From positions 1-64,000 of the forward strand of contig JALFMW010000392.1 in the NCBI GenBank assembly GCA_022782605.1: a DNA stretch of 64,000 nucleotides, read 5' to 3'. The notes under the pieces are model-generated. The model was given only the letters and a program-made list of their open reading frames with translations. It made no database searches and was not told where the DNA came from. Source of the DNA: Clostridium sp. (GTDB lineage Bacteria; Bacillota; Clostridia; Peptostreptococcales; Peptostreptococcaceae). Positions 45,101 through 59,890 of this stretch are shown piece after piece. The position numbers and the translations under genes were made by a program. Every line of letters begins with the position of its first letter. Position 1 is the stretch's first letter.

Positions 45101-45104
45101 AAAC

Positions 45105-45365
45105 TCATAATATAATATTATATATTATAGTATATAATACCACTTATCACCTTATATAGTATCATATACCATATTAACCAATACTATATAAGACCTTATA
45201 TAATACTATATAATAACATTATGTACATTATATTATGTATACTATTATATATTACATATTAATATTATGTATCTTACTACATTCTACATAGTTATATTAT
45301 GTAACTATATAACATTACATATTAATACTATGTATACTATAATATTTTACATAATTATACTATTT
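45105..45365. other. AT-rich stretch, candidate unwinding region
   Basis: Almost only A and T, with irregular TATATAATACTATA-like repeats (for example ATTATGTA, TATATAAC). It lies between the iterons and the large repeat array. Compatible with an origin unwinding element; no gene. Confidence 0.5.
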
Positions 45366-45379
45366 TGTTGTTTATAGAT

Positions 45380-45915
45380 CTGTAAATAATGTTTATATAA
45401 CAGAAAACAAGTGTATATATAGCAGTAAATAGATCCATATAAAAGTAAACAAGTGTATATATAAAAGTAAATAATGTCTATGTAGCAGTAAACAGGTGTA
45501 TATATATCAGTAAATAAGATCCATATATAAGTAAATAAGTGTATATATAACAGTATATAGATTTATATATAACTAAGCAATGTTTATATAGCAGTAAATG
45601 AGTGTATATAGATCTGTATAGAGTTTATATATAAAAGTAAACAAGTGTAAATATAACAGTAAATAGATCTCATATACAACTAAGCAGTGCTTATATAGTA
45701 GTAAACAAGTGTATATATAAAAGTAAATGTATTTATATATCTGCAAACAATGTTTATATATCTGTAAATAAGATCCATATAACAGTAAACAAGTGTATAT
45801 AGATCTGTATAGAGCGTATATATAAAAGTAAACAAGTGTATATAGATCCATAAATAGTATCCATATAACAGTAAATAAGTGTATATATAAAAGTAAATAG
45901 TATCTATATAAGTTA
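45380..45915. repeat. About 25 degenerate 20-22-bp tandem repeats
   Basis: The consensus is AAACAAGTGTATATATAACAGT, with alternating variants such as AAATAGATCCATATAAAAGT. Units of 20-22 bp follow one another without spacer. The divergence between units and the helical-turn period suggest binding sites of a partition (centromere-like, cf. TubC/parC iterons) or replication protein. A 115-codon frame on the minus strand across it is an artefact of the repeat. Confidence 0.8.
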
Positions 45916-45949
45916 TACATGTCTTATATATGACTTGTAGCAGTCACTA

Positions 45950-46200
45950 TATAATTAGATCCTGATAAATAAACATTTGCATGTATTTTATAGTAGCGTA
46001 TAAGGCCTATATAGGACTATAATAATGTATAGCAGTATATAAAGCCTTTAAGATCCTTAAACTTGTATACGCCTTATAGTGTTAATATAATAGTATATAG
46101 GTATTATTTAAAGTTTATTAAAAAGTTTTTTTAAAATAAGTGTTATTTAGATCCTATATATCATATAATATATTATAAAGGATTTATAAAACAACTTTAA
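45950..46200 (+). other. Gene-free spacer before the first array promoter
   Basis: About 250 bp without a gene. It contains GTATAAGGCCTATATAGG and GTATACGCCTTATAG imperfect inverted repeats and TTTAAGATCC blocks. Nothing firmer is visible. Confidence 0.4.
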
Positions 46201-46230
46201 AAATATTTAAAAATATTTTTAAAAAAAGTA

Positions 46231-46259
46231 TTTACAAATACTTAAAAATCCTTTATAAT
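46231..46259 (+). promoter_or_regulatory. Rightward promoter 1 of the cassette array
   Basis: TTTACA-17-TATAAT. The 60 bp around it are duplicated at 46617-46645. Confidence 0.8.
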
Positions 46260-46616
46260 ATAAGTATAGAAGATAAATAAATAAGTTTTAAAGCTTGTTT
46301 GATCTTCTTAGTTACAATATTACTTAATACAATTACTCATAAATCCTTATAGCTCCAATATCATAAAATGCATGTGCAGGATATGAACGGCATAAAGGCT
46401 ATAACGATACACTAATTACAGATACTCATGAATAACTTAATATATAGGCGTTACAGTAGTTAGGTAAACACTCTAACATTTATATATTTAAGTGGTTCAA
46501 AACTCATTTTAAAAAATTAAAAATTTTCCACTAAAGAGGAATATTTAAATAATATACTTCATATATTATAATGTAAAGGATCTTAAAAATATTAAAAAAT
46601 ATTTTTAAAAAAAGTA

Positions 46617-46645
46617 TTGACAAATATTTAAAAATCCTTTATAAT
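46617..46645 (+). promoter_or_regulatory. Rightward promoter 2 of the cassette array
   Basis: TTGACA-17-TATAAT, consensus; duplicate of promoter 1 (identical spacer end AAAAATCCTT and downstream ATAAGTATAGAA). Start near 46652, about 500 nt before the first coding start. Confidence 0.9.
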
Positions 46646-46651
46646 ATAAGT

Positions 46652-47157
46652 ATAGAAAGGATAAATAAATAATATTTAAAAAATATTATTTAAGGATCAA
46701 AAAATTAAAAATTTTCTACTAAAGAGGAATATTTAACAGTAATGTTGAATATTATATAGTAAGAAGACTTAAGAGGCTGACAAAATGATCTTTTAAAAGT
46801 CCATATGATTTATTTAATAGGTAAGGTTATGGCGATATTATCGTACTGTTAGTTACTACATTATAACTATAAAGGAACTGCTTTAAGTTGTAGCGTAACA
46901 AATGCGTTAGTAAAGTAAGATTTATCTGAAGCGATACTATAACTCCAGGGATTAAATAAATTGGTATGGCGACGTTGTGAAGACGTGTGCGATCTTTGAT
47001 AATTGAATATAGATTTAAAAACTCCTATAGTAGATCCACTTTAGTCTCAACCAAATAGGAATTGACAATATATCACATAGGATCTACTTTAACGGCTTAG
47101 CACTTATTTATTAAGTGTTAAGAGTTACATATTTTAAAATAAAGGAGTGTATTTTAT
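46652..47157 (+). ncRNA. Long structured leader of the cassette array
   Basis: A 500-nt gene-free transcript start with helices: a perfect 11-bp stem AAATAATATTT/AAATATTATTT, ACGT..ACGT near 46978, AGTAGATCC/GGATCTACT around 47030-47085 and AGCACTT/AAGTGTT near the first gene. It also contains the AAGAGGAATATTTAA element (46722). A leader this long before 24 hairpin-bearing units could act in antitermination or translation control; this is inference. Confidence 0.5.
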
Positions 47158-47397
47158 ATGGAAAAGTATTATAAAATTATTAATGAAATTGAAAGTATAA
47201 GAGGTTTAAAAAATGCTTTTACAGTGGACTATATGAAATATACTGATAGTATATTTTTAAACTTCTACAATATGAAAGCTTTCAAAACATTAGATAATGA
47301 AGATAGTAAAATGTTTGAAAAATTTAAATTAGTCATTGATTATAATGACGTTAATTATGAATTTAAAACTTATGGAGCTATAGAAATATATTTCTAA
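47158..47397 (+). CDS. Cassette array protein A1, 79 aa
   Basis: First gene of the array. A helix-beta protein ending in NYEFKTYGAIEIYF. Clearly homologous over its whole length to the 48113 gene (shared FYNMKAFK and YGAIEIYF). RBS AAAGGAGTG before ATG 47158. Function unknown; anti-defence or host-takeover role inferred from context. Confidence 0.6.
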   Translation: MEKYYKIINEIESIRGLKNAFTVDYMKYTDSIFLNFYNMKAFKTLDNEDSKMFEKFKLVIDYNDVNYEFKTYGAIEIYF

Positions 47398-47471
47398 AGG
47401 GACTTATTAAAAGTCCCAATACATAGCTAGTTATAAACTAGCAAATATTTAAATTAAGGAGTGTTTTTATT

Positions 47472-47780
47472 ATGGAAGAAAAGAACATTAAAATGGTAGA
47501 AAAAAGATATTATAAGGCTGGTACACAATGGAAATTATCAGAAGTTGTAGAAGAAAATATTACAAAGGAATACTATTTAAATATTATTAACTCTTGCAAG
47601 TTCTTCAGGAACTTAGGAGGGTATGAGAGGTTAACAAGTGGATACACTTATTCAGGCTATATACCTACACAATTAAACAGTATAAGCCCTGATAAAAAAG
47701 AGAAAATCGTAAGATCTTTTGAATTTAATAAAAATACAGGATCTATATATTATGATCAAAAGAAAAAAGAATATAAATAA
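47472..47780 (+). CDS. Cassette array protein, 102 aa
   Basis: Basic protein with an acidic start; YYKAGTQWKLSEVVEENITKEYYLNI and a Tyr-rich centre (YTYSGYIPTQL). No motif recognised. RBS TTAAGGAGTG. Confidence 0.55.
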   Translation: MEEKNIKMVEKRYYKAGTQWKLSEVVEENITKEYYLNIINSCKFFRNLGGYERLTSGYTYSGYIPTQLNSISPDKKEKIVRSFEFNKNTGSIYYDQKKKEYK

Positions 47781-47862
47781 TTAAAAAGGGACTTATTAAA
47801 AGTCCCTAAATACATAACTAGAAAAAATCTAGCAAATATTTAAAAATTAAGGAGTGTATAAC

Positions 47863-48048
47863 ATGTTAAAGCCTAGTACTCAAAAGTATATAGAAATAAG
47901 CAATATTAACATAGAAGACATTAATAAAATGTCTTATGATGAGATATACAATTTTGCTACTTCTGAAAGAATGCTTTATGATTTAATTGTTAACTGTAGC
48001 AATATAGAGCTTATGAGAAAATATTTGTTAAATCATAGGACTTATTAA
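47863..48048 (+). CDS. Cassette array protein, 61 aa
   Basis: Start ATG 47863 chosen because the in-frame GTG at 47854 lies inside the ribosome site. Small helical protein (NIEDINKMSYDEIYNFATSERMLYDL). The next hairpin overlaps its last codons. Unknown. Confidence 0.55.
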   Translation: MLKPSTQKYIEISNINIEDINKMSYDEIYNFATSERMLYDLIVNCSNIELMRKYLLNHRTY

Positions 48049-48112
48049 ACAAGTCCTAAATACATAGCTAGTTATTAATTAACTAGCAAATAAAAAAATT
48101 AAGGAGTGTCTT

Positions 48113-48352
48113 ATGGAAAAATATAATATGATCTTAAATGAATTAAAAGGAATGAAAGAATTTAAAAAAGGGATTGACGTTGATTATGAAAGTCTTATAG
48201 ATTCTATTTTAATAACTTTTTACAACATGAGAGCTTTTAAAAAGTTAAATAATTCAAATAGTAAAGTATGGAAAAACTTTAAAGACATATGTAACAAATA
48301 CAACGTAAATTATAAATTCCAGAGCTATGGAGCTATAGAAATATATTTCTAA
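48113..48352 (+). CDS. Cassette array protein A2, paralogue of A1
   Basis: 79 residues, same length and order as the 47158 gene: NELKGMKEFKKGIDVDYESLIDSIL, FYNMRAFKKL and YGAIEIYF. The two copies show that array genes duplicate as whole cassettes. Function unknown. Confidence 0.65.
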   Translation: MEKYNMILNELKGMKEFKKGIDVDYESLIDSILITFYNMRAFKKLNNSNSKVWKNFKDICNKYNVNYKFQSYGAIEIYF

Positions 48353-48426
48353 AGGGACTTTTAATAAGTCCCTAAATACATAGCTAGTTATTAACTAGCA
48401 AATATTTAAATTAAGGAGTGTTTTAT

Positions 48427-48705
48427 ATGATAAAAGTAAATAAATTAACTATGAATGAATTTTTCAACTTTATAGAGGAGCTAAGAACATATAAAGGATT
48501 TAAGACCACTATAAAAGAAGATATATTCAGAGTATGTCGTGAGGATCGCAGATATGATCACGGAAAAATTATTATGACTGAGGCTTGTTATAATAAAATA
48601 GCTAATAAAGCTAGTAACTCTATAGCATTTGATTATGTTGTTAATAAATATAATCTAACATACTCATTGGAAGATGATAACACAATATTATTTTTTAAAC
48701 TTTAA
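48427..48705 (+). CDS. Cassette array protein B1, 92 aa
   Basis: Start ATG 48427. FNFIEELRTYKGFKTTIKEDIFRVC and NLTYSLEDDNTILFFK. It is homologous to the 52666 gene. The C-terminal layout (short helix, TY-x-L/F-x-D-x-x-T-I-L-F-F) recalls A1/A2, so A and B may be distant relatives. Unknown function. Confidence 0.6.
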   Translation: MIKVNKLTMNEFFNFIEELRTYKGFKTTIKEDIFRVCREDRRYDHGKIIMTEACYNKIANKASNSIAFDYVVNKYNLTYSLEDDNTILFFKL

Positions 48706-48776
48706 AAGGGCTTCAAGCCCTTAATACATAGCTAGTTATAAACTAGCAAATAATTTAAAATTAAGGAGTGTTTTAT

Positions 48777-49151
48777 ATGAAAAATACAAAGATGTTACAA
48801 GAAAAAAAGGAATTAACAAAGGTATGCAAAGAGTTTGTAAACTCTAATGACAAGAGTAATTCTTATTTATGCAGGTTCCATAGATTATATTTAGATGGAA
48901 GTTATACAGGTTATGATATTTATAAATATCATATAAACAGAGTAAAAAGTTTAAAAACTAATAATTCACTAGAAAAATTTGCTTTTCAAACTTTTTGCAA
49001 GTTCATAAGAATAGAATTCTTTGAGAATTCCTCAAGAGTAACAAATGAAATAATAAAGACTTATTTAATGGAAGGTCTTGCAGATGAGTATAACAATTTA
49101 ATGGAAGAAATAATTAAAAATGTAGCTGAATTTAAAGCAGATCATGAATAA
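48777..49151 (+). CDS. Cassette array protein, 124 aa
   Basis: Start ATG 48777. Basic N-terminus with Cys and a helical acidic C-terminus (LADEYNNLMEEIIKNVAEF). Not recognised. Confidence 0.55.
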   Translation: MKNTKMLQEKKELTKVCKEFVNSNDKSNSYLCRFHRLYLDGSYTGYDIYKYHINRVKSLKTNNSLEKFAFQTFCKFIRIEFFENSSRVTNEIIKTYLMEGLADEYNNLMEEIIKNVAEFKADHE

Positions 49152-49239
49152 TAATTAAAAAGGGACTTATTAAAAGTCCCTAAATACATAGCTAGAAAAA
49201 ATCTAGCAAATATTTAAATATTAAGGAGTGTTTTTATTT

Positions 49240-49485
49240 ATGGAAAAAAATATATATGTTTATAATTTTACTGCAAACAGTGGACTAATGGTAAAGGATA
49301 TCGAATATGGTATAGATCCTGGAATAGAAGATAAAATAGTCGTTAGTTTCTTTTATTACTCTGAAGTAAAGGAAAAAACAATAGAAGAAGAAAGCAAAAA
49401 ATATAAATTATATGCTACAAATAAAGGCTCTTACTTTAATTATAAGGGGGTTAGAATGTATTTAAATGACTTTATAAGATGCTAA
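49240..49485 (+). CDS. Cassette array protein D1, 81 aa
   Basis: Start ATG 49240. Beta-rich, ends KLYATNKGSYFNYKGVRMYLNDFIRC. The G-x-Y-F-x-Y...YLxDF ending is similar to the 53006 gene (possible shorter paralogue). Unknown. Confidence 0.55.
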   Translation: MEKNIYVYNFTANSGLMVKDIEYGIDPGIEDKIVVSFFYYSEVKEKTIEEESKKYKLYATNKGSYFNYKGVRMYLNDFIRC

Positions 49486-49568
49486 GAAAATAGGGACTTA
49501 TTAAAAGTCCCTAAATACATAGCTAGTTATAAACTAGCAAATATAAAATATTAAGGAGTGTTTTATAT

Positions 49569-49910
49569 ATGAATAAAAGAGAATTTATAAAATTAGTCGA
49601 TAAATATTATTTTGACTATGATTTAAGAGAAATAAGAGTTACGATCTGGACTGGTTATTCATCAAGCTGTAATTATCTTGATTCATGGTTAAGTATTGAC
49701 TGTTACAATAAAAATGGCGATTTTATTCAAGAAATTGACGATTATTTAATTGATCTATATACTAACATTGAAGGAATTGAAAATATAGACAATTCTACAC
49801 TAGAGGAAAGACAAAGATTAATGAAAGATCAACAAAAAATAGTAACTAAAATTAAAAAGTGGTTAGAAAGCTATGACATATTAGTAAAAAAATGTCATGC
49901 TAATGTATAA
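49569..49910 (+). CDS. Cassette array protein, 113 aa
   Basis: Alpha/beta protein, beta hairpins around EIRVTIWTGYSSSCNYLDSWLSI and a helical end. Unknown family. Its own 3' hairpin is AAGGGAATTAAATTCCCTT. Confidence 0.55.
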   Translation: MNKREFIKLVDKYYFDYDLREIRVTIWTGYSSSCNYLDSWLSIDCYNKNGDFIQEIDDYLIDLYTNIEGIENIDNSTLEERQRLMKDQQKIVTKIKKWLESYDILVKKCHANV

Positions 49911-49985
49911 GGGAATTAAATTCCCTTAAATACATAGCTAGTTATCAACTAGCAAAATATTTATAATTAAGGAGTGTTTTTAAGT

Positions 49986-50495
49986 ATGTCAATGTCATTA
50001 TCATTTATAGGAAAATTTTATAATGGAAAAACTAGAGGTATAGGAAGTTATGTTTCTACAAACGGATTAAATAACTCAAAATTATACATGGATCAAGATG
50101 ACATAGAGTTTATTTTAAAAGTCGCTGGTATGGAGAAAAAAAGCTTTAATTGGTGCTTAGAAAATAATAAGTTTAAAGAAGTTATAGTATACGCTTATTA
50201 TGAAGGTAGTAAAATAATGGAAGAAAAAATAAATCTACCTTTAAGAAGAATAGACAAACAAATAGTCGCACAATATATAGAAAAAGCTAATAAAGAAGCT
50301 AAAAAACAAGTTCAAAAAGAATTTAATAGACCTTTTAACTACCTAACAGAAGATGCAAAGGAAAAAGTATATCTTCACTGGTATATAATGCAACCAATAA
50401 ATAAAACTGAAGAGGAAAAAATAAAAGAGTTTTCCTCTTTAATAAGAGAAAATAGCAGGATTGACGATCATTATAATATAATATTTAACGTTTAA
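49986..50495 (+). CDS. Cassette array protein, 169 aa
   Basis: Start ATG 49986, the longest protein of the central array. Begins MSMSLSFIGKFYNGKTRGIGSYVSTNGL and contains KVAGMEKKSFNWCLENNKF. Acidic/basic mixed. Not recognised. RBS AAGGAGTG. Confidence 0.55.
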   Translation: MSMSLSFIGKFYNGKTRGIGSYVSTNGLNNSKLYMDQDDIEFILKVAGMEKKSFNWCLENNKFKEVIVYAYYEGSKIMEEKINLPLRRIDKQIVAQYIEKANKEAKKQVQKEFNRPFNYLTEDAKEKVYLHWYIMQPINKTEEEKIKEFSSLIRENSRIDDHYNIIFNV

Positions 50496-50568
50496 AAGGG
50501 ACTTTTAATAAGTCCCTTGTACATAGCTAGAAAAATTCTAGTAAATAAAATTTTAAGGAGTTGTTATT

Positions 50569-50943
50569 ATGAAATATAGCAAAAAAATAAATAATAAGGA
50601 CTTTATGGAATTATATAACCTTTATAATTTTTATAAAGTCAATGAAGGCGAAAACAGTGATATTGTATATGGGATAGTAAAAACTTTAAAAGCTTTGAAA
50701 ATTTATGACGATATACTATTTTATCATTTTTTACAGTCACAGCCATATACAGTAGATAAAGAATTTTTAACAGAAATAAAAGAATCAATAGAAAAAATAT
50801 ATAAAAAATATGATCACGACATGCTATTAAGTGGGGAATATATACAGGAGTTAAAATATAATGATACTATAGAAGAAAATATTAAAAAGCAACTTATAGA
50901 TAAAATAATATATGTATTAGAAGATAATAACATATATATATAA
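50569..50943 (+). CDS. Cassette array protein, 124 aa
   Basis: Helical, lysine and tyrosine rich (FYHFLQSQPYTVDKEFLTEIKESIEKIYKKYDHDM). RBS AAGGAG, seven bases before ATG 50569. Unknown. Confidence 0.55.
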   Translation: MKYSKKINNKDFMELYNLYNFYKVNEGENSDIVYGIVKTLKALKIYDDILFYHFLQSQPYTVDKEFLTEIKESIEKIYKKYDHDMLLSGEYIQELKYNDTIEENIKKQLIDKIIYVLEDNNIYI

Positions 50944-51021
50944 AAGGGACTTTTAAAAGTCCCTAAATACATAGCTAGAAAAAATCTAGCAAATAATTTA
51001 AAATTTAAGGAGTATATATAT

Positions 51022-51246
51022 ATGTATAATAAGTATTATGAAAGGTTAAATAGCGTTGACAAAAAGGATTATAATATGATAGAAAAGGAATGCGAAAAGA
51101 TACTGCAACATTATGGATCTTATGATGTATTGACATTCATAAATGATTATATTTATGATCTAAGCGATACCGTAAATAGTAATTATTTCTTAGCAATATG
51201 TGAATTGGAAGACCATTACTTTAATATTTATAAAGAGGGACTTTAA
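51022..51246 (+). CDS. Cassette array protein, 74 aa
   Basis: Small helical acidic protein (YERLNSVDKKDYNMIEKECEKILQHYG). The stop codon lies in the first hairpin of the next cassette. Unknown. Confidence 0.55.
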   Translation: MYNKYYERLNSVDKKDYNMIEKECEKILQHYGSYDVLTFINDYIYDLSDTVNSNYFLAICELEDHYFNIYKEGL

Positions 51247-51314
51247 ATAGTCCCTAAATACATAGCTAGAAAAAATCTAGCAAGAAAATTTTATATAATT
51301 AAGGAGTGTTTTAT

Positions 51315-51692
51315 ATGAAAAAATTTAGTAAAAAAGCTTTAAATGAATTAAAGAAAACTGAAGAGTTCAACGATCGACTTTCAAAAAGAGTTATAAATGA
51401 TTTACTAGCAACTGGATTATCTACATTAGAATTAAAAGACCATATAAACTATATAATAAAATATGGCTGTTATATGAAAAATATTAATGCTCTAAATTAC
51501 TATATGGATACAATAAGATTTTTCAATTGCTATAAAGAAGAAATACTGAGCTTAGTTAAAGAACTTGACTTTAATATTGGTAATAATAATCAAAAAAGAT
51601 TTACTAAAGAAGAAAAAAAAGATCTATCATGGTTCGCTTATAAAGAAATAACAAATAGAATAGCTATAAAATATTCTGAATTATTACAATAG
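51315..51692 (+). CDS. Cassette array protein C1, 125 aa
   Basis: Start ATG 51315. FSKKALNELKK...DRLSKRVINDLLATGLSTLELKDHI, IKYGC...TIRFFNCYKEEI and FTKEEKKDLSWFAYKEI are all repeated in the 52138 gene. The pattern recalls small phage proteins with GC-x-S-G...YY-x-D/E-T-x-x-F motifs (recalled, not checked). Helical. Unknown function. Confidence 0.6.
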   Translation: MKKFSKKALNELKKTEEFNDRLSKRVINDLLATGLSTLELKDHINYIIKYGCYMKNINALNYYMDTIRFFNCYKEEILSLVKELDFNIGNNNQKRFTKEEKKDLSWFAYKEITNRIAIKYSELLQ

Positions 51693-51762
51693 GAACTTTT
51701 ACAAGTTCCTAAATACATAGCTAGTTAATAACTAGCAAGAAAATTTTTAAGGAGTGTTTTAT

Positions 51763-52005
51763 ATGGAAAAAAATTACTTAGTGGAAAAAAGAGATCAAAT
51801 AATGATCATTGCAAGTGATCATATTTCAGGAGGTTATGAAACTTCAGCAGTGTATTATAAAAATCACTGCTTATATTCAGATGAACCTGAAACAGAATAT
51901 ATACAGAACGCTTTAAATAATGGATATGAATTATTAGGAATAATTCAAGGAAGGGACTACAGAGAAATAAAAAAACAATTAGAGCATATGACTCAAGCAT
52001 TATAA
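51763..52005 (+). CDS. Cassette array protein, 80 aa
   Basis: Start ATG 51763. VEKRDQIMIIASDHISGGYETSAVYYKNHCLYSD, alpha/beta with an acidic helical end (REIKKQLEHM). Unknown. Followed by the longer variant cassette at 52008-52133. Confidence 0.55.
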   Translation: MEKNYLVEKRDQIMIIASDHISGGYETSAVYYKNHCLYSDEPETEYIQNALNNGYELLGIIQGRDYREIKKQLEHMTQAL

Positions 52006-52070
52006 AAGGGACTTTTAATAAGTCCCAGTACATACTTATATTAATATATAGAAAAAAATTTTAGATATCG

Positions 52071-52084
52071 AGAGGAATATTTAA
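52071..52084 (+). promoter_or_regulatory. AGAGGAATATTTAA element in variant cassette
   Basis: One of five copies (46534, 46722, 52071, 55505 and a near copy at 56231). It is placed between the first hairpin and a TATATTAATATAAG stretch. Possible phage-specific promoter or antitermination element. Confidence 0.45.
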
Positions 52085-52137
52085 AAGTTTGTAGAATATA
52101 TATTAATATAAGAAAAATTTAATTAAGGAGTGTTTTT

Positions 52138-52584
52138 ATGAAATATGTAAAATTTACAAAAAAAGCGTTAAATTCTTTAAAAAAGGAAAAGGAGTTTAGC
52201 GATAGACTTTCAAAAAGAGTTATAAACGACTTACTAAGCAATGCTTATAGTACTTCAGATTTAAAATATCATATGGAAGATATAACAGAGTTCGGATGTT
52301 CTGGTGGTAACGTCATGAGTTTAGTTTATTACTCTGAGACAGAAAGATTTTTCAATTGTTATAGGAAAGAAATTATTAACTTATTTAGAGAATTTATATA
52401 TTATAATACTGGAAATATACATGAAGATGTATATGAAGATAATAAAGGAATATATGCTATAATTTACGATTCTGTTATATATGAAGATCAAAAAAAATTT
52501 ACAACACAAGAAAAAAATGATCTTACATGGTTCGCTTATGAGGAAATAGTAAGAAGAATTACACAAGATTATTTTAAACTTTAA
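52138..52584 (+). CDS. Cassette array protein C2, 148 aa
   Basis: Paralogue of the 51315 gene with an insert (INLFREFIYYNTGNIHEDVYEDNKG) in the middle: FTKKALNSLKK, DRLSKRVINDLLSNAY, GCSGGNVMSLVYYSETERFFNCYRKEI and FTTQEKNDLTWFAYEEI. Unknown function. Confidence 0.6.
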   Translation: MKYVKFTKKALNSLKKEKEFSDRLSKRVINDLLSNAYSTSDLKYHMEDITEFGCSGGNVMSLVYYSETERFFNCYRKEIINLFREFIYYNTGNIHEDVYEDNKGIYAIIYDSVIYEDQKKFTTQEKNDLTWFAYEEIVRRITQDYFKL

Positions 52585-52665
52585 ATAATAGGGACTTTTA
52601 ATAAGTCCCAGTACATAGCTAGAAAAAAATTCTAGTAAATAAAATATTAAGGAGTGTTTTTTAGT

Positions 52666-52947
52666 ATGAAAAAAATATTTTTAGGCTTTATTGATGAATT
52701 TTTTGACTTTGTAGAAGAATTAAAACAGTACAATGGATTCAAAACAACTATTAAAGAAAACATATACAGAGTCTGTAAGCGAGATCGTAATGAAGATTAT
52801 GGGAAAATAATTGTTTCTAAGGGCTGTTATAATAAAATAGCTAATAAGGAATACAATTGCATGATACTTGACTATATTACAAATAAACATGATCTAACAT
52901 ATACATTACAGGATGATAATACAATATTATTTTTTAAAAGGGCTTAA
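52666..52947 (+). CDS. Cassette array protein B2, 93 aa
   Basis: Start ATG 52666. FDFVEELKQYNGFKTTIKENIYRVC, CYNKIANKEYN and DLTYTLQDDNTILFF, close paralogue of the 48427 gene about 4.2 kb away, with a similar 3' hairpin (AAGGGCTT). Unknown function. Confidence 0.62.
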   Translation: MKKIFLGFIDEFFDFVEELKQYNGFKTTIKENIYRVCKRDRNEDYGKIIVSKGCYNKIANKEYNCMILDYITNKHDLTYTLQDDNTILFFKRA

Positions 52948-53005
52948 AGCCCTTATACATAGCTAGAAAAAAATTTTAATAAGAAAATTTTAAGGAGTTG
53001 TTTAT

Positions 53006-53197
53006 ATGAAAATAAGTAATTATAATTATATTGAAGTGGTTAACTGTAACAACGATACTATTACATTAAAAGAGTATGTAAAATATATAGATAATGTGGA
53101 ACGTGATATTAGTTATAGAAAAGTAAATATTCATCATGATAAAAAAGGACAATATTTTATATACTATAGAAAAAAATATTATTTAAAAGATTTTTAA
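53006..53197 (+). CDS. Cassette array protein D2, 63 aa
   Basis: Small beta-rich protein; HHDKKGQYFIYYRKKYYLKDF ends like the 49240 gene. Unknown. Confidence 0.55.
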   Translation: MKISNYNYIEVVNCNNDTITLKEYVKYIDNVERDISYRKVNIHHDKKGQYFIYYRKKYYLKDF

Positions 53198-53267
53198 AAG
53201 GGACTTTTACAAGTCCCTTAATACATAGCTAGTATAACTAGCGAAAAAAATAAAAGGAGTTATTGAC

Positions 53268-53450
53268 ATGAATAAAAGATTATCAGAACTTTTAAAAGAA
53301 GAATTTTTAACAGAAGATGAGTTGAATGAAATATATTCAATGGAAAATGTAACAGTTAAGTATAATGGAAGTAGTAACACACTTATTAAATATTACTGTT
53401 TTACTGTTTATACAAGTAATAGGAAAGAATATGACATATATGTAATTTAA
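53268..53450 (+). CDS. Cassette array protein, 60 aa
   Basis: Helix-beta protein (RLSELLKEEFLTEDELNEIY...KYYCFTVYTSNRKEYDIYVI), similar in plan to small hydrophilic phage regulators. Unknown. Confidence 0.55.
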   Translation: MNKRLSELLKEEFLTEDELNEIYSMENVTVKYNGSSNTLIKYYCFTVYTSNRKEYDIYVI

Positions 53451-53520
53451 ATAGGGATTAAATAGATCCCTAATACATAGCTAGTATAACTAGCAAAAAA
53501 ATTTTTTATGAGGTGTTATT

Positions 53521-53874
53521 ATGTTATTAAATAAAAATGAATTATCTGCTATAATGAAAAAAGCTCACGTTATGACTAAAAAATTTGTTAAATTATATCA
53601 CGTCAATTATCATTTTCAATTTAGTTTATGCTTAAAATTTATGTATAGTCAATTTAAGGAATACGCTAAGGAAACAATGGAAGAACATTTAAGAAATATA
53701 TTACTAACATTAAATAAATTATTAATAACTAAAGATAACAGATATAATAAATATTTAAAATTATACAATAAGTATAATACAGAAGAGAATATTATAAGAA
53801 AAGCTAAAAATATAATATCACTTGATGGATACTTTAAAAATAGCTTAGGAAAAAAATATATTAAATTAGAATAA
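53521..53874 (+). CDS. Cassette array protein, 117 aa
   Basis: Basic helical protein, lysine and leucine rich (FVKLYHVNYHFQFSLCLKFMYSQFKEYAKE). RBS GAGGTG. Unknown. Confidence 0.55.
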   Translation: MLLNKNELSAIMKKAHVMTKKFVKLYHVNYHFQFSLCLKFMYSQFKEYAKETMEEHLRNILLTLNKLLITKDNRYNKYLKLYNKYNTEENIIRKAKNIISLDGYFKNSLGKKYIKLE

Positions 53875-53954
53875 ATAGGAACTTGTAAAAGTTCCTAAGT
53901 ACATAGCTAGTTATTAACTAGCAAATATTTATATATTTTAAAGGAGTGTTATAT

Positions 53955-54272
53955 ATGAGAAAATCAACCAATAAAGAATTTTTAGAGGGAAAAGCTTTTA
54001 GATATGCTGTTGATCGTTACTTTAATACAACAGACTGTTTTATATCTACTTATAAAAATTATGGTTACTGTATAACTAATTTTTATAATAGATTCGGTAT
54101 TATGAATATAGCAATTTTTAAATTAACCAAAGACGGAAATATTAAACTAATATATGAAAATAAATACTTAGAAGATATAATAAAATTGTTTGGAGAAAAT
54201 TTTAGAAAAAATAATGTTGATACTGTTAGAAGAAAAGTTGCAGATTTTATAAAAGTAAATTTAGAGGGATAG
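53955..54272 (+). CDS. Cassette array protein, 105 aa
   Basis: Start ATG 53955. Alpha/beta protein with YKNYGYCITNFYNRFGIMNIAIFKLTKDG; the stop codon overlaps the next hairpin (AGAGGG/CCCTCT). Unknown. Confidence 0.55.
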   Translation: MRKSTNKEFLEGKAFRYAVDRYFNTTDCFISTYKNYGYCITNFYNRFGIMNIAIFKLTKDGNIKLIYENKYLEDIIKLFGENFRKNNVDTVRRKVADFIKVNLEG

Positions 54273-54344
54273 CCCTCTAATATACATACTTATACTAATA
54301 TTAGTATAAGAAAAATATTTTAAATAAAAAGGGGAATGTATATT

Positions 54345-54764
54345 ATGGAAAAATATTATGAATTAAAAAATTATCAGATTCAACTTTTAAATCTAAGGGA
54401 TCAAGTCCTTGAAGATAATCCAGAACTAGAAAAAGATTTACAAGAGGTTACAAATAGTTTAAAACAATTTAAACAAGTGAAAAAATATGAAAGACTATAC
54501 ACTAAGGAAGAATTAAGAGAGCAGATAAGTTCTATTAGAAATATAGAGTATTTAATAGAGCAACAACAGAATAAACTTTTTGCTATAACTGATAGCAATA
54601 AGGTACAAGATAGCTTTTATAAGGCAAACATAACTATAATAGGACTAAATATAAAAAGGCTTAAAGAATATAAAAGAGAGTTAAAAAATAAAATTAAAAA
54701 TAATCAAATATTTTTTACAGATCAAAAGAAAATATCTAATAATTGGAGATTTAAACAATGTTAA
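54345..54764 (+). CDS. Cassette array coiled-coil protein, 139 aa
   Basis: Start ATG 54345 (an earlier ATG is too close to GGGG). Almost entirely helical coiled coil with basic end (KNKIKNNQIFFTDQKK). Upstream unit uses the variant hairpin CTTATACTAATATTAGTATAAG. Unknown. Confidence 0.55.
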   Translation: MEKYYELKNYQIQLLNLRDQVLEDNPELEKDLQEVTNSLKQFKQVKKYERLYTKEELREQISSIRNIEYLIEQQQNKLFAITDSNKVQDSFYKANITIIGLNIKRLKEYKRELKNKIKNNQIFFTDQKKISNNWRFKQC

Positions 54765-54836
54765 ACATAAATATAATATGGGGATATATCCCCATAGTAC
54801 ATAAAATATAAATTAATAAAAAGGAGATATATAATT

Positions 54837-55412
54837 ATGAAGAAAAAAATAATATCTTTATTATTAACTAACATTATAGGAGCAACAATTATTTTTAACT
54901 CAAATATAAGTTGTAAAACTAATGATACTTCACTTAAAGAAATAAATAAGTTTCCAGATAATTATATAACAGATATAACAGATACTTTTACTGCTAATGA
55001 TAAACTAGAAACTACGACAGACATGGAAGAATATGCTGAAGTTTGGTTGCGTAAGGTCTATGGTATTAATTTAGGAGATTATAAAGTTACATTTAAAATA
55101 ACAGATTTAAGAGATAAAAAATCTGCAGGACTTTATGAAAAAGATTATTTTGATAATTATACAATATCATTAAGTAAGTTTTTATTTAACTTAAACGATA
55201 GAGAAAAAGCTGAGAGAACATTAATACATGAACTAACTCATTTTGCAATGAGTGTATTGGATAAGGGGTATAGGGATGAAGATAAAGACTTTCAAAAAGA
55301 GTGTGTGAAAAATGGTGGATCTTTAAATGGGATCGGAAAAGCTAGACCAATGTATAGTCATTTAGAGGGGAATAAATACTATACAGCTAAAGAATACGAC
55401 AGCCAAAAATAA
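54837..55412 (+). CDS. Exported zincin-like metalloprotease
   Basis: 191 residues with a signal-peptide-like N-terminus (KKKIISLLLTNIIGATIIF) ending near SC-K; LIHELTHFAMS is an HExxH zinc site at about residues 134-144. After it comes a Tyr/Gly-rich segment. Probably secreted or anchored at the cell surface. Possible superinfection exclusion or lysis helper; unverified. Cassette hairpin ATGGGGATATATCCCCAT upstream. Confidence 0.65.
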   Translation: MKKKIISLLLTNIIGATIIFNSNISCKTNDTSLKEINKFPDNYITDITDTFTANDKLETTTDMEEYAEVWLRKVYGINLGDYKVTFKITDLRDKKSAGLYEKDYFDNYTISLSKFLFNLNDREKAERTLIHELTHFAMSVLDKGYRDEDKDFQKECVKNGGSLNGIGKARPMYSHLEGNKYYTAKEYDSQK

Positions 55413-55504
55413 AAAAAATTTTTTGAATTATATTTTTAAAAAGGACTTTTACAAGTCCCTTGTACATACTTATATTAATATATAAGAAAAAAATTTTTAA
55501 GATT

Positions 55505-55519
55505 AAGAGGAATATTTAA
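55505..55519 (+). promoter_or_regulatory. AAGAGGAATATTTAA element
   Basis: Further copy of the element, here followed by TATATTAATATAAG as in the 52-kb copy, and 53 bp before the DUF4258 gene. Confidence 0.45.
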
Positions 55520-55577
55520 AAGTTTAGAGAATATATTAATATAAGAATAATTTAAAATTAATTGAGGGGGAATGAAG

Positions 55578-55940
55578 ATGGAGGGAAAAAGAGTAAGATA
55601 TGAAGAACTAAAAGAAGAGGAAAAAATTAATATTGAAAAACAATTAGAAGAACATTTAAGAAATAACGATAAAATAAAAATATCTGTTCACGCTATCCAA
55701 AGGATGTCACAAAGGGGCATAGGTTTTAAACATGTAAAAAATTTAATAAGGTCTAAAGATTACTTTATAGATAGTATTACAAAGGCTGATAATAATATTT
55801 GTGTATCAATTATTAGCCATTATCCTGTACGGAATAAGTTACATTTAAAACTTGTTTTGTGTTTAACTAATTATATGATAGTTACGGCTATGGCTAAAAA
55901 AGTAAAAGGAGATGATATAATTGAGTATGAAAGAATTTAA
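55578..55940 (+). CDS. DUF4258-like protein (RelE-like candidate)
   Basis: About 120 residues from ATG 55578; HAIQRMSQRGIGFKHVKNLIRS is the H-x3-R-M-x2-R-G-I signature of DUF4258, related in fold to RelE/ParE toxins. Its last 20 bp overlap the next gene, so the two form a coupled pair. Toxin-antitoxin or counter-toxin function is inferred. Confidence 0.65.
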   Translation: MEGKRVRYEELKEEEKINIEKQLEEHLRNNDKIKISVHAIQRMSQRGIGFKHVKNLIRSKDYFIDSITKADNNICVSIISHYPVRNKLHLKLVLCLTNYMIVTAMAKKVKGDDIIEYERI

Positions 55941-56232
55941 AAAAAGAATTAAGGAAACAAAAGAACAACAAAGAAAAAAAGACGTTGCAAGAGGTTATAT
56001 AAATAAAAGTAATAAATCTATATTTAGAATAAATAATAGTAACATAGAGATTCTATGGAGCGATAACATAAGTATAAGAGAAAAAGATTATTCTATACAA
56101 GCTTTAAAAGAAATAAATTTACAAGATAGAATTAAAGGAGATAAAATATTTCTTAGTAGATACTGCGACACAACAAATGACTTTATAGTAAAAGACAATT
56201 TAAATAATAAAATAGTTTTAGAAACAATTTAA
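55921..56232 (+). CDS. Partner of the DUF4258 protein, 103 aa
   Basis: Starts at a TTG at 55921 or ATG at 55927, overlapping the DUF4258 gene; AAAGGAG lies nine bases before the TTG. Basic helical N-terminus (KRIKETKEQQRKKDV), then a beta-rich part. It could be a cognate antitoxin or assembly partner. Unknown. Confidence 0.5.
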   Translation: MSMKEFKKRIKETKEQQRKKDVARGYINKSNKSIFRINNSNIEILWSDNISIREKDYSIQALKEINLQDRIKGDKIFLSRYCDTTNDFIVKDNLNNKIVLETI

Positions 56233-56429
56233 AAGGAATATTTATAAATATATAGAATATAATATATTAGAAAGATATTTAAAAGCCCTTTACAAAGGGC
56301 AATACATAGCAACTGTGGGAATGACAAATAATAAAAAAAACTTTTAGAAAAAAAGAAGGAATTAATATACAAATGTAGAATATATATAGTATAAAGATAA
56401 ATAAATTAAAATAAAAAGGAGCGATCTTT

Positions 56430-57305
56430 ATGAAAGAAAGACAAGTTATATTTCAAGCATGGATGTGGAAGCTTAATAACATACCAGTAGAAGAGGTAAA
56501 AAGACAAGGCTTTACAGCTATTCAAACAAGCCCATTACAGCTTACAAAGGAAAAAATCCATGAGAACTTAGACAACGCATGGGCAATATATCAACCAATA
56601 AATTATGATATCGGGAATGACTTAGGAACTGAAGAAGACTTAAAAAACTTAGCTGATAGATGTCATGCTAATGGATTAAAGCTAATAGTGGATGTGGTTT
56701 TTCACCATGTAGCTAATGAAAGAGGGAATGATATATATTATTTAGTGCCAGATGAATATAGACATTTTTACAATGACAGTTTTATAAATATAAGTAATTA
56801 TAATAGTGAATATGAGCTAACTCATATGAGCTTAGACGGACTACCAGCTTTAAATTTAGAAAATGAAACTATTGTAAACGCTCAATTTAACTATTTAAAA
56901 CAATTAAGGAATGCAGGTGTAGACGGCGTTCGTGTGGACGCTTACAAACATTTAATAAAGAGTTATAGAGTAAGATTAGCTGAAAAACTTAGAGAGCTAA
57001 ATATGATAGAAAATAGCTATGGTGAGGTAATATTTGCAGACAAACAACTTCAAAGCAGTTATAATGAAATAGCCTTATATGTTAATCAGAGTTTAAATAA
57101 TGGTAGTCAATACGGTGCGATCATTAGCCATGATGACTTCAAAAATTCTGAAAATCCATACTTAAGACGTGATCCTAACTATTTTCTAGCAGAGTATGGC
57201 TATTTTATGGACAACAGTTTAAGACAGAATGTGGTTTACTTCTGTAGACCAGATGATCATATTTGGAAAATGGATAATATACGTTATATAAATGCTAGAA
57301 GATAA
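56430..57305 (+). CDS. GH13 alpha-amylase-like protein, short form
   Basis: 291 residues. GH13 regions: DVVFHH (residues 88-93, usually DVVFNH), LPALN near 138 (region V), GVRVDAYKH (166-174, with R168 and nucleophile D170), YGEV (catalytic E199) and a degenerate region IV that may be CRPDDHIW. There is no signal peptide and no C-terminal domain, so the protein is intracellular and shorter than usual alpha-amylases. It might hydrolyse host glycogen/granulose, or be a binding protein. The altered N in region I and H in region IV cast doubt on normal activity. Confidence 0.8.
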   Translation: MKERQVIFQAWMWKLNNIPVEEVKRQGFTAIQTSPLQLTKEKIHENLDNAWAIYQPINYDIGNDLGTEEDLKNLADRCHANGLKLIVDVVFHHVANERGNDIYYLVPDEYRHFYNDSFINISNYNSEYELTHMSLDGLPALNLENETIVNAQFNYLKQLRNAGVDGVRVDAYKHLIKSYRVRLAEKLRELNMIENSYGEVIFADKQLQSSYNEIALYVNQSLNNGSQYGAIISHDDFKNSENPYLRRDPNYFLAEYGYFMDNSLRQNVVYFCRPDDHIWKMDNIRYINARR

Positions 57306-57391
57306 TATAAAAAAATTTAAAGTATGTAGTAATATTACTGCATACTAATACATATATATAATATATAGATAAATTAAGGAGTGATTTATAT

Positions 57392-57736
57392 ATGAAAAAA
57401 TCAGAGGTTAAACAACTATTTTTAAGCCGTGGGAAGGTCGCTGAAGATATCAGAGAAACATATTTTTTGACATCAGATGGAACTCCTATAAATCTTGGAT
57501 CCAGAATTAACTGTTGTGGAGAAATAGAGAGAAGCGTTGAACATAACAGCTGTTTCGATTTGTTTAAATGCAGGTCAAATGACTGGATAAAGTTCTTTAA
57601 GAAAACTGGAGTTGTGCAGATAATTCCTGAATATAAATGCTGTGCTTATTTAGAGGGACAAAAGTTAACTAAAAAGCAGAGGGAATTTATTGAAAGAAAT
57701 AAATTAGAAATATTAGAGCAGAGTTGTTTTATATAG
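57392..57736 (+). CDS. Hypothetical Cys-rich protein, 114 aa
   Basis: MKKSEVKQLFLSRGKVAEDI...CCGEIE...CFDLFKC...CCAYLEG. Several paired cysteines but no recognised fold. Preceded by a cassette-like unit at 57317. May share the operon with the GH13 gene. Confidence 0.55.
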   Translation: MKKSEVKQLFLSRGKVAEDIRETYFLTSDGTPINLGSRINCCGEIERSVEHNSCFDLFKCRSNDWIKFFKKTGVVQIIPEYKCCAYLEGQKLTKKQREFIERNKLEILEQSCFI

Positions 57737-57849
57737 TAGTTTGTTTAGTAATAATATTAAAGAAAAATAATTAAAAATAAATGTATAAATCCTTAATCAT
57801 TTGGGAATACTTATAATATAATAATAAGATAGAAGGAAGTGTTTCAAAA

Positions 57850-58191
57850 ATGGTTAAGGATTTATTTTTAAACAAGGGTAATGTATATTATGCTACATTA
57901 CATAACAATCATAAGGGAATACAGAGAGGTAATAGACCGGTAATACTAATAGGAGTATATGGTTCTGTAGTATCCGTAATACCATTGACAACTAAACTAA
58001 AAAGGATGGATTTAAAACAACATATCCATATAAAAACAATAGATAAAAGAGGAAATAAGCATGATTCAAACTGCTTACTTGAACAGCTTACAACTATTCC
58101 AAGAGAATATATAACAGATTACTATGGATATATACCTCAAGAAGATAAGGAAAAGATAAACAGCAGAATAAAAGAGGTTATCACTGTATAA
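57850..58191 (+). CDS. MazF/PemK-family toxin-like protein
   Basis: 113 residues. GNVYYATLHNNHKGIQRGNRPVILIGV...VIPLTT and a C-terminal ITDYYGYIPQEDKEKI match MazF endoribonucleases, including the R-G-N-R-P loop. No MazE-type antitoxin lies upstream or downstream; the neighbours are a Cys-rich and a helical protein. Could act on host RNA under phage control, or be silenced by an unrecognised antitoxin. Confidence 0.8.
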   Translation: MVKDLFLNKGNVYYATLHNNHKGIQRGNRPVILIGVYGSVVSVIPLTTKLKRMDLKQHIHIKTIDKRGNKHDSNCLLEQLTTIPREYITDYYGYIPQEDKEKINSRIKEVITV

Positions 58192-58197
58192 AAACTA

Positions 58198-58226
58198 TTG
58201 ACAAATGAATTAAAATAGTTTATTAT
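58198..58226 (+). promoter_or_regulatory. Rightward promoter
   Basis: TTGACA-17-TATTAT between the MazF-like gene and the 58248 gene; spacer AATGAATTAAAATAGTT is identical in type to the leftward promoters. Confidence 0.75.
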
Positions 58227-58247
58227 AAATAATAAGGAGGGGATAAT

Positions 58248-58547
58248 ATGAATTTTTTTAAGAAAAAAGAAAAGACAAAGATCACATTAAAAGAAAAGAA
58301 TGTCTTATTGTATTTATTACTTAATGATATTCAAAATGATACTTCACCATTTACAATAAGAAGTAGAGTACAGAAGATAATTGAACTACTTCATGATCTG
58401 GGAATAGATAAAGAAAGGATTGACTTAAATAAACAAAAGCCCAGCGATGAACTGGTGGAAGAAATATTTTATAACTTAAATTGTCCTTCTAAGGATATGA
58501 GCAGGCACGATTATAAAGTATATGCTAGATTATTTGATAAGCTGTAA
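58248..58547 (+). CDS. Hypothetical protein, 99 aa
   Basis: Basic helical protein (KKKEKTKITLKEKNVLLYLLLNDI...). Own promoter; RBS AGGAGGGGATAAT. Downstream it ends with a hairpin AGAGCC/GGCTCT. Unknown, perhaps a regulator. Confidence 0.55.
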   Translation: MNFFKKKEKTKITLKEKNVLLYLLLNDIQNDTSPFTIRSRVQKIIELLHDLGIDKERIDLNKQKPSDELVEEIFYNLNCPSKDMSRHDYKVYARLFDKL

Positions 58548-58601
58548 GAGCCACACAAGGCTCTATATACATATATAAATTAATAGGAGGTATATATTTA
58601 T

Positions 58602-58712
58602 ATGCTAAAAAAATTTAATGAAAGAATAGAAATGGTAGAATGTTTAAGTGGCTTTAGATTAAGCAGATTAGAAAAATTCAATTTGTTTATAATGTTTATA
58701 TTAAACTTATAA
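58602..58712 (+). CDS. Short ORF before the recombinase, 36 aa
   Basis: ATG 58602 after TAGGAGG; MLKKFNERIEMVECLSGFRLSRL.... It ends 12 bp before the recombinase start, so it may be a leader peptide or small regulator. Low certainty. Confidence 0.45.
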   Translation: MLKKFNERIEMVECLSGFRLSRLEKFNLFIMFILNL

Positions 58713-58724
58713 GGAGGTCTTTAT

Positions 58725-59657
58725 ATGAGTTATTTAGATTTATACAAAGAGGAATTAAACTTAAAAGGAAAAAGAGTAAATACCATAGAAAGTATCAATA
58801 ATTCAATTGATACTTTTCAAAAATATTTACAAATAAAAGATATTGAACTAAATGACGCAACTATTAACAATATAACTGTTCAAGACGCTTTTAGTTATAG
58901 AAAATATTTATTGGATAGAGGATATAAAAGAAGTACAGTGAATACTAAAATAGCTAATATAAAAAGTTATTTTGGATTCTTAGTTAAACATGAGATAATT
59001 ATTAAAAATCCTTTTGCAGGCTTTGAAGCGATGGAAGAGAACGATAAGACTATTAAAGACATATTAACCAAAGAAGAAGTTATAAAACTAATAGAGAGTT
59101 TTGGGATTAAGTTACAAGGCGAACGGAATTTTGAGTATATTTCAAAAAGGAATAAGGCTATTATAGCAGTATTAGCTAGTACTGGAGTGAGAATAGAAAA
59201 CTTATTGAATGTAACTATGGATAAACTAATCAAGATAGAAGAAGGATATAAAATAGAATACGCAAAAGCAGAAACAAAAGGTAAAGTTGATACTACTATT
59301 TATATAGTGGGAAAGAATAAAGAACTATTGGAGGACTATTTAAAGGTAAGAAAAGATAAGTCAGGATTAAATTTATTATTTAATTCTGCTGGAGCTAATA
59401 AAAAAATCTCAAGAAGTGATATGATCACTATAATAAATAAAAGAGTAGAATATTTAGGGATTCAAAAGCATATAGTGTCACATAGTTTTAGAGCTTATAC
59501 AGCAAATGCTTTACTATCTAATGGAGCAGAGCCAATAATAATTCGCAAGATGTTAGGCTGGAGTAATAATAAGCAAGATATGTTATCAAGTGTATATTAT
59601 CGTAATGAAGCACAAGAGAAGCAAATAATAGAATACTCACAGATCTTATGGAAATAA
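58725..59657 (+). CDS. Tyrosine recombinase (XerC/D-like integrase)
   Basis: 310 residues. The N-terminal SAM-like core-binding domain is at 1-100 and the catalytic residues are R156 (STGVRIENL), a probable K near 185, H253-x2-R256 (HSFRAYT), W279 and Y291/292 (VYYRNEAQ). It catalyses site-specific recombination: integration of the phage, or resolution of dimers and cassette exchange if the genome is a plasmid. An inverted-repeat/sRNA candidate lies directly downstream. Confidence 0.9.
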   Translation: MSYLDLYKEELNLKGKRVNTIESINNSIDTFQKYLQIKDIELNDATINNITVQDAFSYRKYLLDRGYKRSTVNTKIANIKSYFGFLVKHEIIIKNPFAGFEAMEENDKTIKDILTKEEVIKLIESFGIKLQGERNFEYISKRNKAIIAVLASTGVRIENLLNVTMDKLIKIEEGYKIEYAKAETKGKVDTTIYIVGKNKELLEDYLKVRKDKSGLNLLFNSAGANKKISRSDMITIINKRVEYLGIQKHIVSHSFRAYTANALLSNGAEPIIIRKMLGWSNNKQDMLSSVYYRNEAQEKQIIEYSQILWK

Positions 59658-59681
59658 TTTAAAAAATAATTTAAAAAACTA

Positions 59682-59710
59682 TTGACAAGTAAATACTGAA
59701 GGTGTATACT
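59682..59710 (+). promoter_or_regulatory. Promoter downstream of the recombinase gene
   Basis: TTGACA-17-TATACT, plus strand, start near 59717. Confidence 0.85.
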
Positions 59711-59716
59711 AAAGGT

Positions 59717-59890
59717 AATGAAGGGATACTACGCCCTAAAACATGAGATAAAAAGGGAAGTTGAAATATGAAAGATCTATTTACTTCCAGATGGATAGTC
59801 AAATATTAATATCGTATTAATACGCCTAAGGCATATTTATATTCAGCGATAGCACATTAATTTTAAGGTGAAGCCTTAGGCGTATTTTAT
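59717..59890 (+). ncRNA. Candidate small RNA or attachment site by the recombinase
   Basis: Transcript from the strong promoter would run about 170 nt to AATACGCCTAAGGC/GCCTTAGGCGTATT, a perfect 14-bp inverted repeat (arms 59819-59832 and 59873-59886) ending in TTTTATT. The 13-codon frame MKDLFTSRWIVKY (59768-59809) precedes the stem. It may be an sRNA, or arms of a recombination site for the neighbouring recombinase. Confidence 0.6.

Follow-up and report, generated by a model that had tools for sequence, protein, structure and literature searches.

Toxin ribonucleases of the MazF family are usually viewed as agents of arrest or defence, and MazEF has been called a phage-defence mechanism (PMC10769878). 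The Bacillus subtilis member, EndoA, cleaves in vivo only at U/ACAUA, and end-mapping showed that A is required at the sixth base (PMC11780869). In the SPbeta-like phage phi3T, lysogeny is promoted by host MazF, and the phage proteins AimX and YosL inhibit MazF (PMC10769878). The T4 endoribonuclease RegB recognises specific intergenic sequences in early phage mRNAs, where its cuts generate 5'-OH ends, and it also cleaves the Shine-Dalgarno sequence of its own mRNA (PMC3014915). Here, a further arrangement is described in a window of 64,000 nucleotides at the start of a 165,327-base contig (JALFMW010000392.1) in a Clostridium sp. assembly (GCA_022782605.1). Judged from its genes, the contig is that of a distant SPbeta-like phage or prophage. 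Within the window, an array of small genes is punctuated by 25 junction units, each containing a hairpin followed by TACATA. In RNA this invariant core, UACAUA, is the exact EndoA cleavage hexamer in 25/25 units. The module is real, is under RNA-level selection and is built around the MazF/EndoA hexamer. The earlier note on this DNA had recorded TACATA without this identity, which is the key to the module. With a probability of roughly 0.7, each unit is an intercistronic mRNA-processing junction that would be cut by a MazF-family endoribonuclease, such that a toxin is used for mRNA maturation.

The units share a common anatomy. TACATA (positions 47126-58568) follows a G-C-capped hairpin (hairpin 1) at a distance of 1-4 nt and is usually followed by a second hairpin (hairpin 2), an AT-rich stretch and a ribosome-binding site (RBS) of the sequence AAGGAGTG or similar. 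Hairpin 1, defined as a stem of 6 bp or more that includes 3 or more G-C pairs and ends within 5 nt of TACATA, is present in 25/25 units, whereas dinucleotide shuffles gave 0.17 on average and never more than 2. Hairpin 2, defined as a stem of at least 5 bp that begins within 1 nt after TACATA, is present in 21/25 units (shuffle mean 2.8, maximum 8). When all hexamers in the phage non-coding DNA were ranked by enrichment just after hairpins, TACATA came out on top (34 of 72 occurrences, 1.6 expected). These shuffle counts and the hexamer enrichment are the fair tests of the hairpins; arm-shuffling statistics were not relied on because the stems were picked by complementarity. Pairing is kept across 17 distinct first stems and 11 distinct second stems. 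The hexamer is predicted to be accessible in most units, with a median unpaired probability of 0.87 compared with 0.49 for other TACATA, and several units are predicted to be less open. No Rfam 15 family matched positions 44000-64000 up to an E value of 1.

All 25 units lie on the forward strand. Unit 1 (47096-47131, TACATA at 47126) comprises the leader hairpin, the hexamer and the RBS of the first gene, and unit 2 (47396-47464, TACATA at 47420) has the order hairpin 1, TACATA, hairpin 2, AAGGAGTG. Units 3 to 5 are located at 47785-47857, 48035-48110 and 48351-48422 (TACATA at 47811, 48061 and 48377). The stem is AAGGGCT/AGCCCTT in unit 6 (48703-48771, TACATA at 48725) and TAAGGGAAT/ATTCCCTTA in unit 9 (49908-49978, TACATA at 49931), with units 7 and 8 in between at 49159-49232 and 49491-49563 (TACATA at 49185 and 49516). 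Units 10 to 12 occupy 50494-50562, 50942-51013 and 51234-51309 (TACATA at 50520, 50968 and 51259), and unit 13 (51687-51757, TACATA at 51714) has the stem TAGGAACTT/AAGTTCCTA. Unit 14 (52008-52137, TACATA at 52029) has a hairpin 2 of the CTTATAT type and an extended AT-rich insert before the RBS. Unit 15 (52587-52657, TACATA at 52612) is followed by unit 16 (52938-53000, TACATA at 52956), in which hairpin 2 has decayed. Units 17 to 19 are found at 53195-53260, 53453-53516 and 53874-53950 (TACATA at 53222, 53474 and 53900). In unit 20 (54255-54325, TACATA at 54283) the sequence of both stems has been replaced, by TTAGAGGG/CCCTCTAA and CTTATACTA/TAGTATAAG. Hairpin 2 is missing from unit 21 (54777-54803, TACATA at 54798), from unit 23 (56285-56308, TACATA at 56303) and from unit 25 (58547-58573, TACATA at 58568), which precedes the integrase genes. 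The remaining units, 22 and 24, are at 55443-55486 and 57321-57354 (TACATA at 55463 and 57349). A second AT-rich repeat (AAGAGGAATATTTAAA...) occurs at ~46535, 46720, 52070 and 55505, in the leader region and in two enlarged junctions.

The same hexamer is strictly avoided inside the early and middle genes. Expected counts were obtained from 400 rounds of synonymous-codon shuffling, which keeps the protein and the codon usage. In 123 early/middle genes (70.3 kb), classes that were inferred from gene content and position and not from expression data, sense TACATA occurs 0 times compared with 24.8 expected, and the lowest of the 400 shuffles contained 14; genes outside the annotated records are simple open reading frame calls, and these counts may shift by a few. 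The expectation comes from all three reading frames. Avoidance is complete in the array, at 16-46 kb and at 64-105 kb. The reverse complement is not avoided in phage genes (109 vs 111 expected), and host genes show almost no avoidance (48 vs 57 expected). Nearly all one-base variants of TACATA are near expectation in the early/middle genes; the exceptions are TACATC and TACATT, with milder deficits, and the palindrome TACGTA (0 vs 5.4 expected), whose deficit looks like restriction avoidance. Palindrome avoidance was also observed across the whole phage contig, where the genes avoid TCTAGA (0 vs ~49 expected), ACTAGT (7 vs 47) and TACGTA, a sign of restriction avoidance, and CTAG is frequent in the second hairpins despite the avoidance of TCTAGA and ACTAGT in the genes. 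Selection at the RNA level, which the earlier note had argued from stems that change while pairing is kept, is supported, and hexamer avoidance that is confined to the sense strand is the behaviour of an RNA target. The modular order that it described holds for hairpin 1 and TACATA, with 25 units in place of 24 and without a clear hairpin 2 in every one.

Compared with that description, the motif is also not confined to the array. In addition to the 25 array units, 14 further hairpin-TACATA sites are present elsewhere in the phage genome, for example on the reverse strand at 15341-15368, with a hairpin 2, and at 15880-15911. All 39 sites are in the sense direction: 38 lie between co-directional genes and one lies in the divergent leader of the array. 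Hairpin 2 is present at none of the seven sites that have a perfect downstream TTGACA-17-TATAAT promoter and at 25 of the 32 others (Fisher p = 2e-4), a pattern that was noticed after the sites had been inspected and that involves only seven promoter cases and sites that are not all independent. Hairpin 2 is thus present at most sites whose downstream gene depends on readthrough and is absent before perfect promoters, as expected if it protects a new 5' end. Neither a decoy nor a terminator nor a recombination site would be expected to show such a pattern.

These features suggest a processing mechanism. The target would be the single-stranded UACAUA between the hairpins, and the nuclease would most likely be host EndoA or, possibly, the MazF of the phage. 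Cutting at U^ACAUA would convert a terminator-less polycistron into single-gene mRNAs. The upstream product would end in hairpin 1, which would block 3'-to-5' exonucleases, and the downstream product would begin with ACAUA and hairpin 2, which would block 5'-to-3' exonucleases (RNase J1 or a phage beta-CASP enzyme) and leave the RBS intact. MazF activity would then spare and mature the lytic messages of the phage and damage host and repressor messages, because UACAUA is purged from the early/middle genes and kept in host genes and in the integrase/yopQ/yopR region. The toxin thus probably serves the phage in trimming its messages and does not kill it. In Gram-positive bacteria, 5' and 3' stem-loops stabilise mRNA ends after endonucleolytic processing, typically by RNase Y or RNase III. 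The proposed units resemble these in having protective stem-loops on processed ends, and differ in that the known cases involve no strict-hexamer toxin RNase and are not repeated through a whole operon. Compared with T4 RegB, the target is likewise sequence-specific and intergenic, with cutting itself being proposed here from sequence. In contrast, RegB cuts inside the RBS and inactivates messages, whereas the site here precedes the RBS and stands between hairpins, and RegB resembles RelE/YoeB, not MazF.

Two MazF-family proteins are candidates for the nuclease. The host genome contains a canonical EndoAI-EndoA locus, and its EndoA matches solved B. subtilis-type EndoA chains (E ~1e-48). The phage encodes a divergent MazF/PemK-family protein (57850-58191, forward strand; PF02452, E 1.5e-13, 51.3 bits against a curated cut-off of 23.1), whose gene adjoins the integrase/yopQ/yopR module and contains a UACAUA at 57899. 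The equivalents of Arg25, Pro26 and Thr48 are kept in this protein, Gly18 and Glu20 are replaced and the QNxxGN loop is lost; single-sequence structure prediction gave a pLDDT (predicted local distance difference test) of 36. Gly18 and Glu20 are required for activity in a related MazF (PMC8634880). Host EndoA is therefore the safer nuclease candidate. The phage also encodes a homologue of beta-CASP ribonucleases of the CPSF-73/YSH1/TTHA0252/FttA family (16193-17674, reverse strand), with relatives in a few human-gut phages, including MT835469. It is possible, as a guess from homology, that this enzyme is a partner in RNA end processing.

The association between mazF and its hexamer extends to other viruses. 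Of 34 non-redundant mazF genes, nearly all of which come from viral contigs, 9 contain TACATA in the 100-nt leader compared with 46 of 949 other genes (p 5e-5), and the reverse complement is not enriched. In these nine leaders the hexamer lies 23-62 nt before the start, including in contigs whose G+C content (0.64-0.67) makes chance occurrences rare. This enrichment suggests that TACATA is a likely self-regulation site, comparable to the action of T4 RegB on its own Shine-Dalgarno sequence. In a second mazF-like operon of the host, the leader has the order hairpin-TACATA-RBS and resembles the phage junctions. Enterocloster phage CB473P1 encodes a canonical-looking MazF and has 6 TACATA in its genes compared with 26 expected. 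Its late operon contains 7 intergenic sense TACATA before RBSs, of which 5 follow a hairpin (shuffle mean 0.97), and one hairpin-UACAUA-RBS site is located directly 5' of its mazF. In the genes of CB473P1, the GATC-containing pentamers listed among the most depleted are all at zero, which is a strong restriction-avoidance signal.

Several observations weigh against the processing interpretation. The features computed here are the anatomy, the exact hexamer, the sense-strand avoidance, the orientation and the hairpin-2/promoter rule; cleavage, protection of the ends, the nuclease responsible and any influence on lysis or lysogeny are inferred from them. Four of the 25 array units have no clear hairpin 2. 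Avoidance is partial in the late genes, which keep 15 sites compared with 27.5 expected, and in the lysogeny segment (57.8-64.1 kb) the agreement with expectation (4 vs 4.0; one site in mazF, one in the yopQ-like gene and two in the yopR-like gene) is a matter of small counts. With the Gly18 and Glu20 equivalents lost, the specificity or activity of the phage MazF is doubtful, and the protein could instead be a MazE-binding decoy. Phage MT835469 encodes both a MazF and a beta-CASP enzyme and has no such units, and TACATA is mildly over-represented in its genes. Lysinibacillus phage LC76P1 avoids TACATA in its genes (first 50 kb) and has neither units nor mazF, so avoidance on its own may reflect no more than defence against host MazF.

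The relationship to phi3T raises the alternative that survives best, although it is unlikely: the units might lower expression, with MazF cutting the operon, silencing early lytic genes and favouring lysogeny, as proposed for phi3T. Both phages are SPbeta-like, face a MazF with UACAU(A) specificity, would have transcripts shaped by MazF sites and carry the lysogeny genes integrase-yopQ-yopR beside MazF-related genes. The module in the window comprises a tyrosine integrase (58725-59657), a YopQ homologue with one in-gene UACAUA (61694-63046, E 9e-9) and a YopR-like protein of the SPbeta master-repressor family with two (63039-64000 and past the window to ~64085; a weak match, E 0.0018), all on the forward strand and in the same order as in phi3T. 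No homologues of AimR, AimP, AimX or YosL were found in this phage. When phi3T was analysed by the same shuffling method, TACATA was the most over-represented of 2,970 in-gene hexamers (107 vs 47 expected); the excess falls in late genes and in those of the right arm, and the aimR-yopR region does not share it. This excess fits the published role of host MazF in phi3T lysogeny. A companion study by Guler et al. 2024 reportedly places MazF sites on lytic transcripts. The promotion of phi3T lysogeny by MazF activity (PMC10769878) and the strong enrichment of its genes in TACATA would favour silencing. In contrast, the genes here are purged (0 vs 24.8), the opposite of phi3T, and the sites are set between genes in hairpin modules; the gene and RBS released by each cut would be intact, usually with flanking hairpins, and in-gene sites persist in the yopQ- and yopR-like genes instead. 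In addition, a mazF-like gene is present in this phage, and none was found in phi3T. The same site thus appears to be laid out in opposite ways in two SPbeta-like phages.

A slightly weaker alternative is that UACAUA is merely avoided against host MazF, with the intergenic copies being leftovers or tolerated and the hairpins separately stabilising mRNA. MazEF does act against phages (PMC10769878), and LC76P1 avoids the hexamer without having units. Tolerance leaves unexplained, however, that stems vary freely around a TACATA kept in 25/25 units, that this hexamer ranks first after hairpins (34 vs 1.6) and that hairpin 2 is lacking precisely at the sites with a downstream promoter.

It is less probable again that hairpin and UACAUA form an unusual terminator, or a pause or antitermination signal, of a phage RNA polymerase. 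The phage does encode a large protein with a DMDGD motif (19149-21923, reverse strand; PHROG 8308), read as a YonO-type single-chain RNA polymerase, with relatives in SPbeta-like phages, one of which is annotated as an RNA-dependent RNA polymerase. The units stand at gene ends in the place of U-tract terminators, and few U-tract hairpins are found in the sense direction. As the earlier note had recognised, the units are not ordinary terminators: on the sense strand, hairpin 1 is followed by TACATA and not by a T-tract, and many first hairpins look terminator-like in the antisense direction because A-tracts precede them. A hairpin-dependent terminator gives no reason to avoid bare UACAUA in genes or to match the EndoA hexamer exactly. 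Moreover, two sigma-70 promoters at 46231-46645 (forward strand) appear to drive the whole array, one at 46231 with 11/12 matches and one at 46617 with 12/12 (TTGACA-17-TATAAT), and no promoter of comparable strength was found in any junction at 47100-58190. With strong promoters only before the first gene, the array is best read as a single operon of ~11 kb, and efficient termination would silence the downstream genes. Upstream of these promoters, iteron-like repeats with a period of ~43 bases occupy 45369-45943, in the divergent region between two transcription directions, and are a candidate replication origin or set of repressor sites.

The units could also mark the ends of gene cassettes that are shuffled at the DNA level, a role proposed for the PeSLs of T4-type phages; this is about as improbable as termination. 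The flanks are repeated, and duplication is visible within the array in three paralogue pairs (47158/48113, 48427/52666 and 51315/52138). Of the cassette exchange suggested by the earlier note, this duplication is what could be found; no trace of recombination was seen at the repeats, and the relatives searched had no array of this kind. The stems vary in sequence while pairing is kept, only 6 nt are invariant, the genes avoid these 6 nt on a single strand, and shuffled relatives were not found in the genomes searched. Gene shuffling may be a by-product. The PeSLs and the start-associated sequences (SAS/ESAS) of cluster K mycobacteriophages, which had been named as analogues, turned out to be poor matches. 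PeSLs (cited in PMC4503421) are likewise intergenic stem-loops among many small genes, and the seven hairpin-TACATA sites followed by a promoter outside the array have a PeSL-like layout. In contrast to PeSLs, which combine an early promoter with a stem-loop, the array units have no promoter, and their hallmark is an RNase hexamer with a second hairpin. SAS/ESAS are also repeated sequences with inverted repeats before small genes (PMC3203893), but ESAS repeats are 17 bp with a conserved sequence, no MazF-type site has been described for them, and the SAS consensus GGGATAGGAGCCC has 0 matches in the window with up to 2 mismatches allowed. A decoy that titrates MazF, comparable to the RNA antitoxin repeats of type III systems, is the least probable alternative: the 39 hairpin-flanked copies would be an abundant competitor substrate, but a decoy needs neither placement at every junction, an RBS or the hairpin-2/promoter rule nor purged genes, and type III repeats are tandem pseudoknots beside the toxin gene, whereas the units are separated by genes.

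Relatives of the module were sought in several sequence sets. Megablast against phages gave no close relative of the array, and a distant blastn search of plasmids gave only a short low-complexity match in Borrelia. The exact unit pattern produced single, chance-like matches in viral and genome contigs. A covariance model, the search proposed in the earlier note, retrieved only this phage among 71 genomes of the host family, which is represented by 23 genera, a limited negative because the model had caught hairpin 2 and not hairpin 1. The module is absent from SPbeta-like contigs of the same host family, in which T-tracts follow hairpins wherever any hexamer stands out. Hairpin-TACATA sites occur at 13 per 644 kb in mazF-carrying viral contigs compared with 12 per 1.22 Mb in other viral contigs; the rate is only slightly raised, such that a phage mazF alone does not predict an array. 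A downstream extension, TACATATTACAAAAG, was considered as a second module and rejected, since 119 of 120 viral matches had no hairpin.

A broader proposal can be made only tentatively. A toxin-antitoxin RNase might serve as the maturation enzyme of the phage transcriptome, with MazF cuts at hairpin-fenced junctions, perhaps with beta-CASP help, setting mRNA ends that replace terminators. Sites without such protection remain in host and repressor messages, and through them the same MazF activity might shut off the host and drive lytic growth, inverting the logic of phi3T. If true, a toxin RNase would be used constructively, and gene avoidance together with hairpin-flanked junction sites would be a signature, readable in sequence, of the relation of any phage to MazF. 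With the site arranged in opposite ways in two relatives, it becomes testable how MazF tips lysis or lysogeny in SPbeta-like phages. Should the proposed function of the junctions hold, they would also provide ready-made parts with which operons could be divided into equal, stable messages.

The genomic context agrees with the assignment to the SPbeta-like phages. An exact 141-base repeat is common to both contig ends, indicating a circular genome of ~165.2 kb. A related terminase (31-35% identity to SPbeta-like phage records), the YonO-type polymerase and the integrase-yopQ-yopR module mark the phage as a distant member. Almost all of the small array proteins, for which the earlier note suggested possible counter-defence roles, lack recognisable relatives; the protein encoded at 47472-47780 is 44% identical to ORF18 of Vibrio phage ICP1 across 78 residues. 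A TnpB/OrfB-IS605 gene (11192-12337, reverse strand) lies within the packaging genes. Finally, a phage protein with sigma-70 region 2 is encoded beside a NADAR-domain protein (30919-31743 and 31814-32236, both on the reverse strand).

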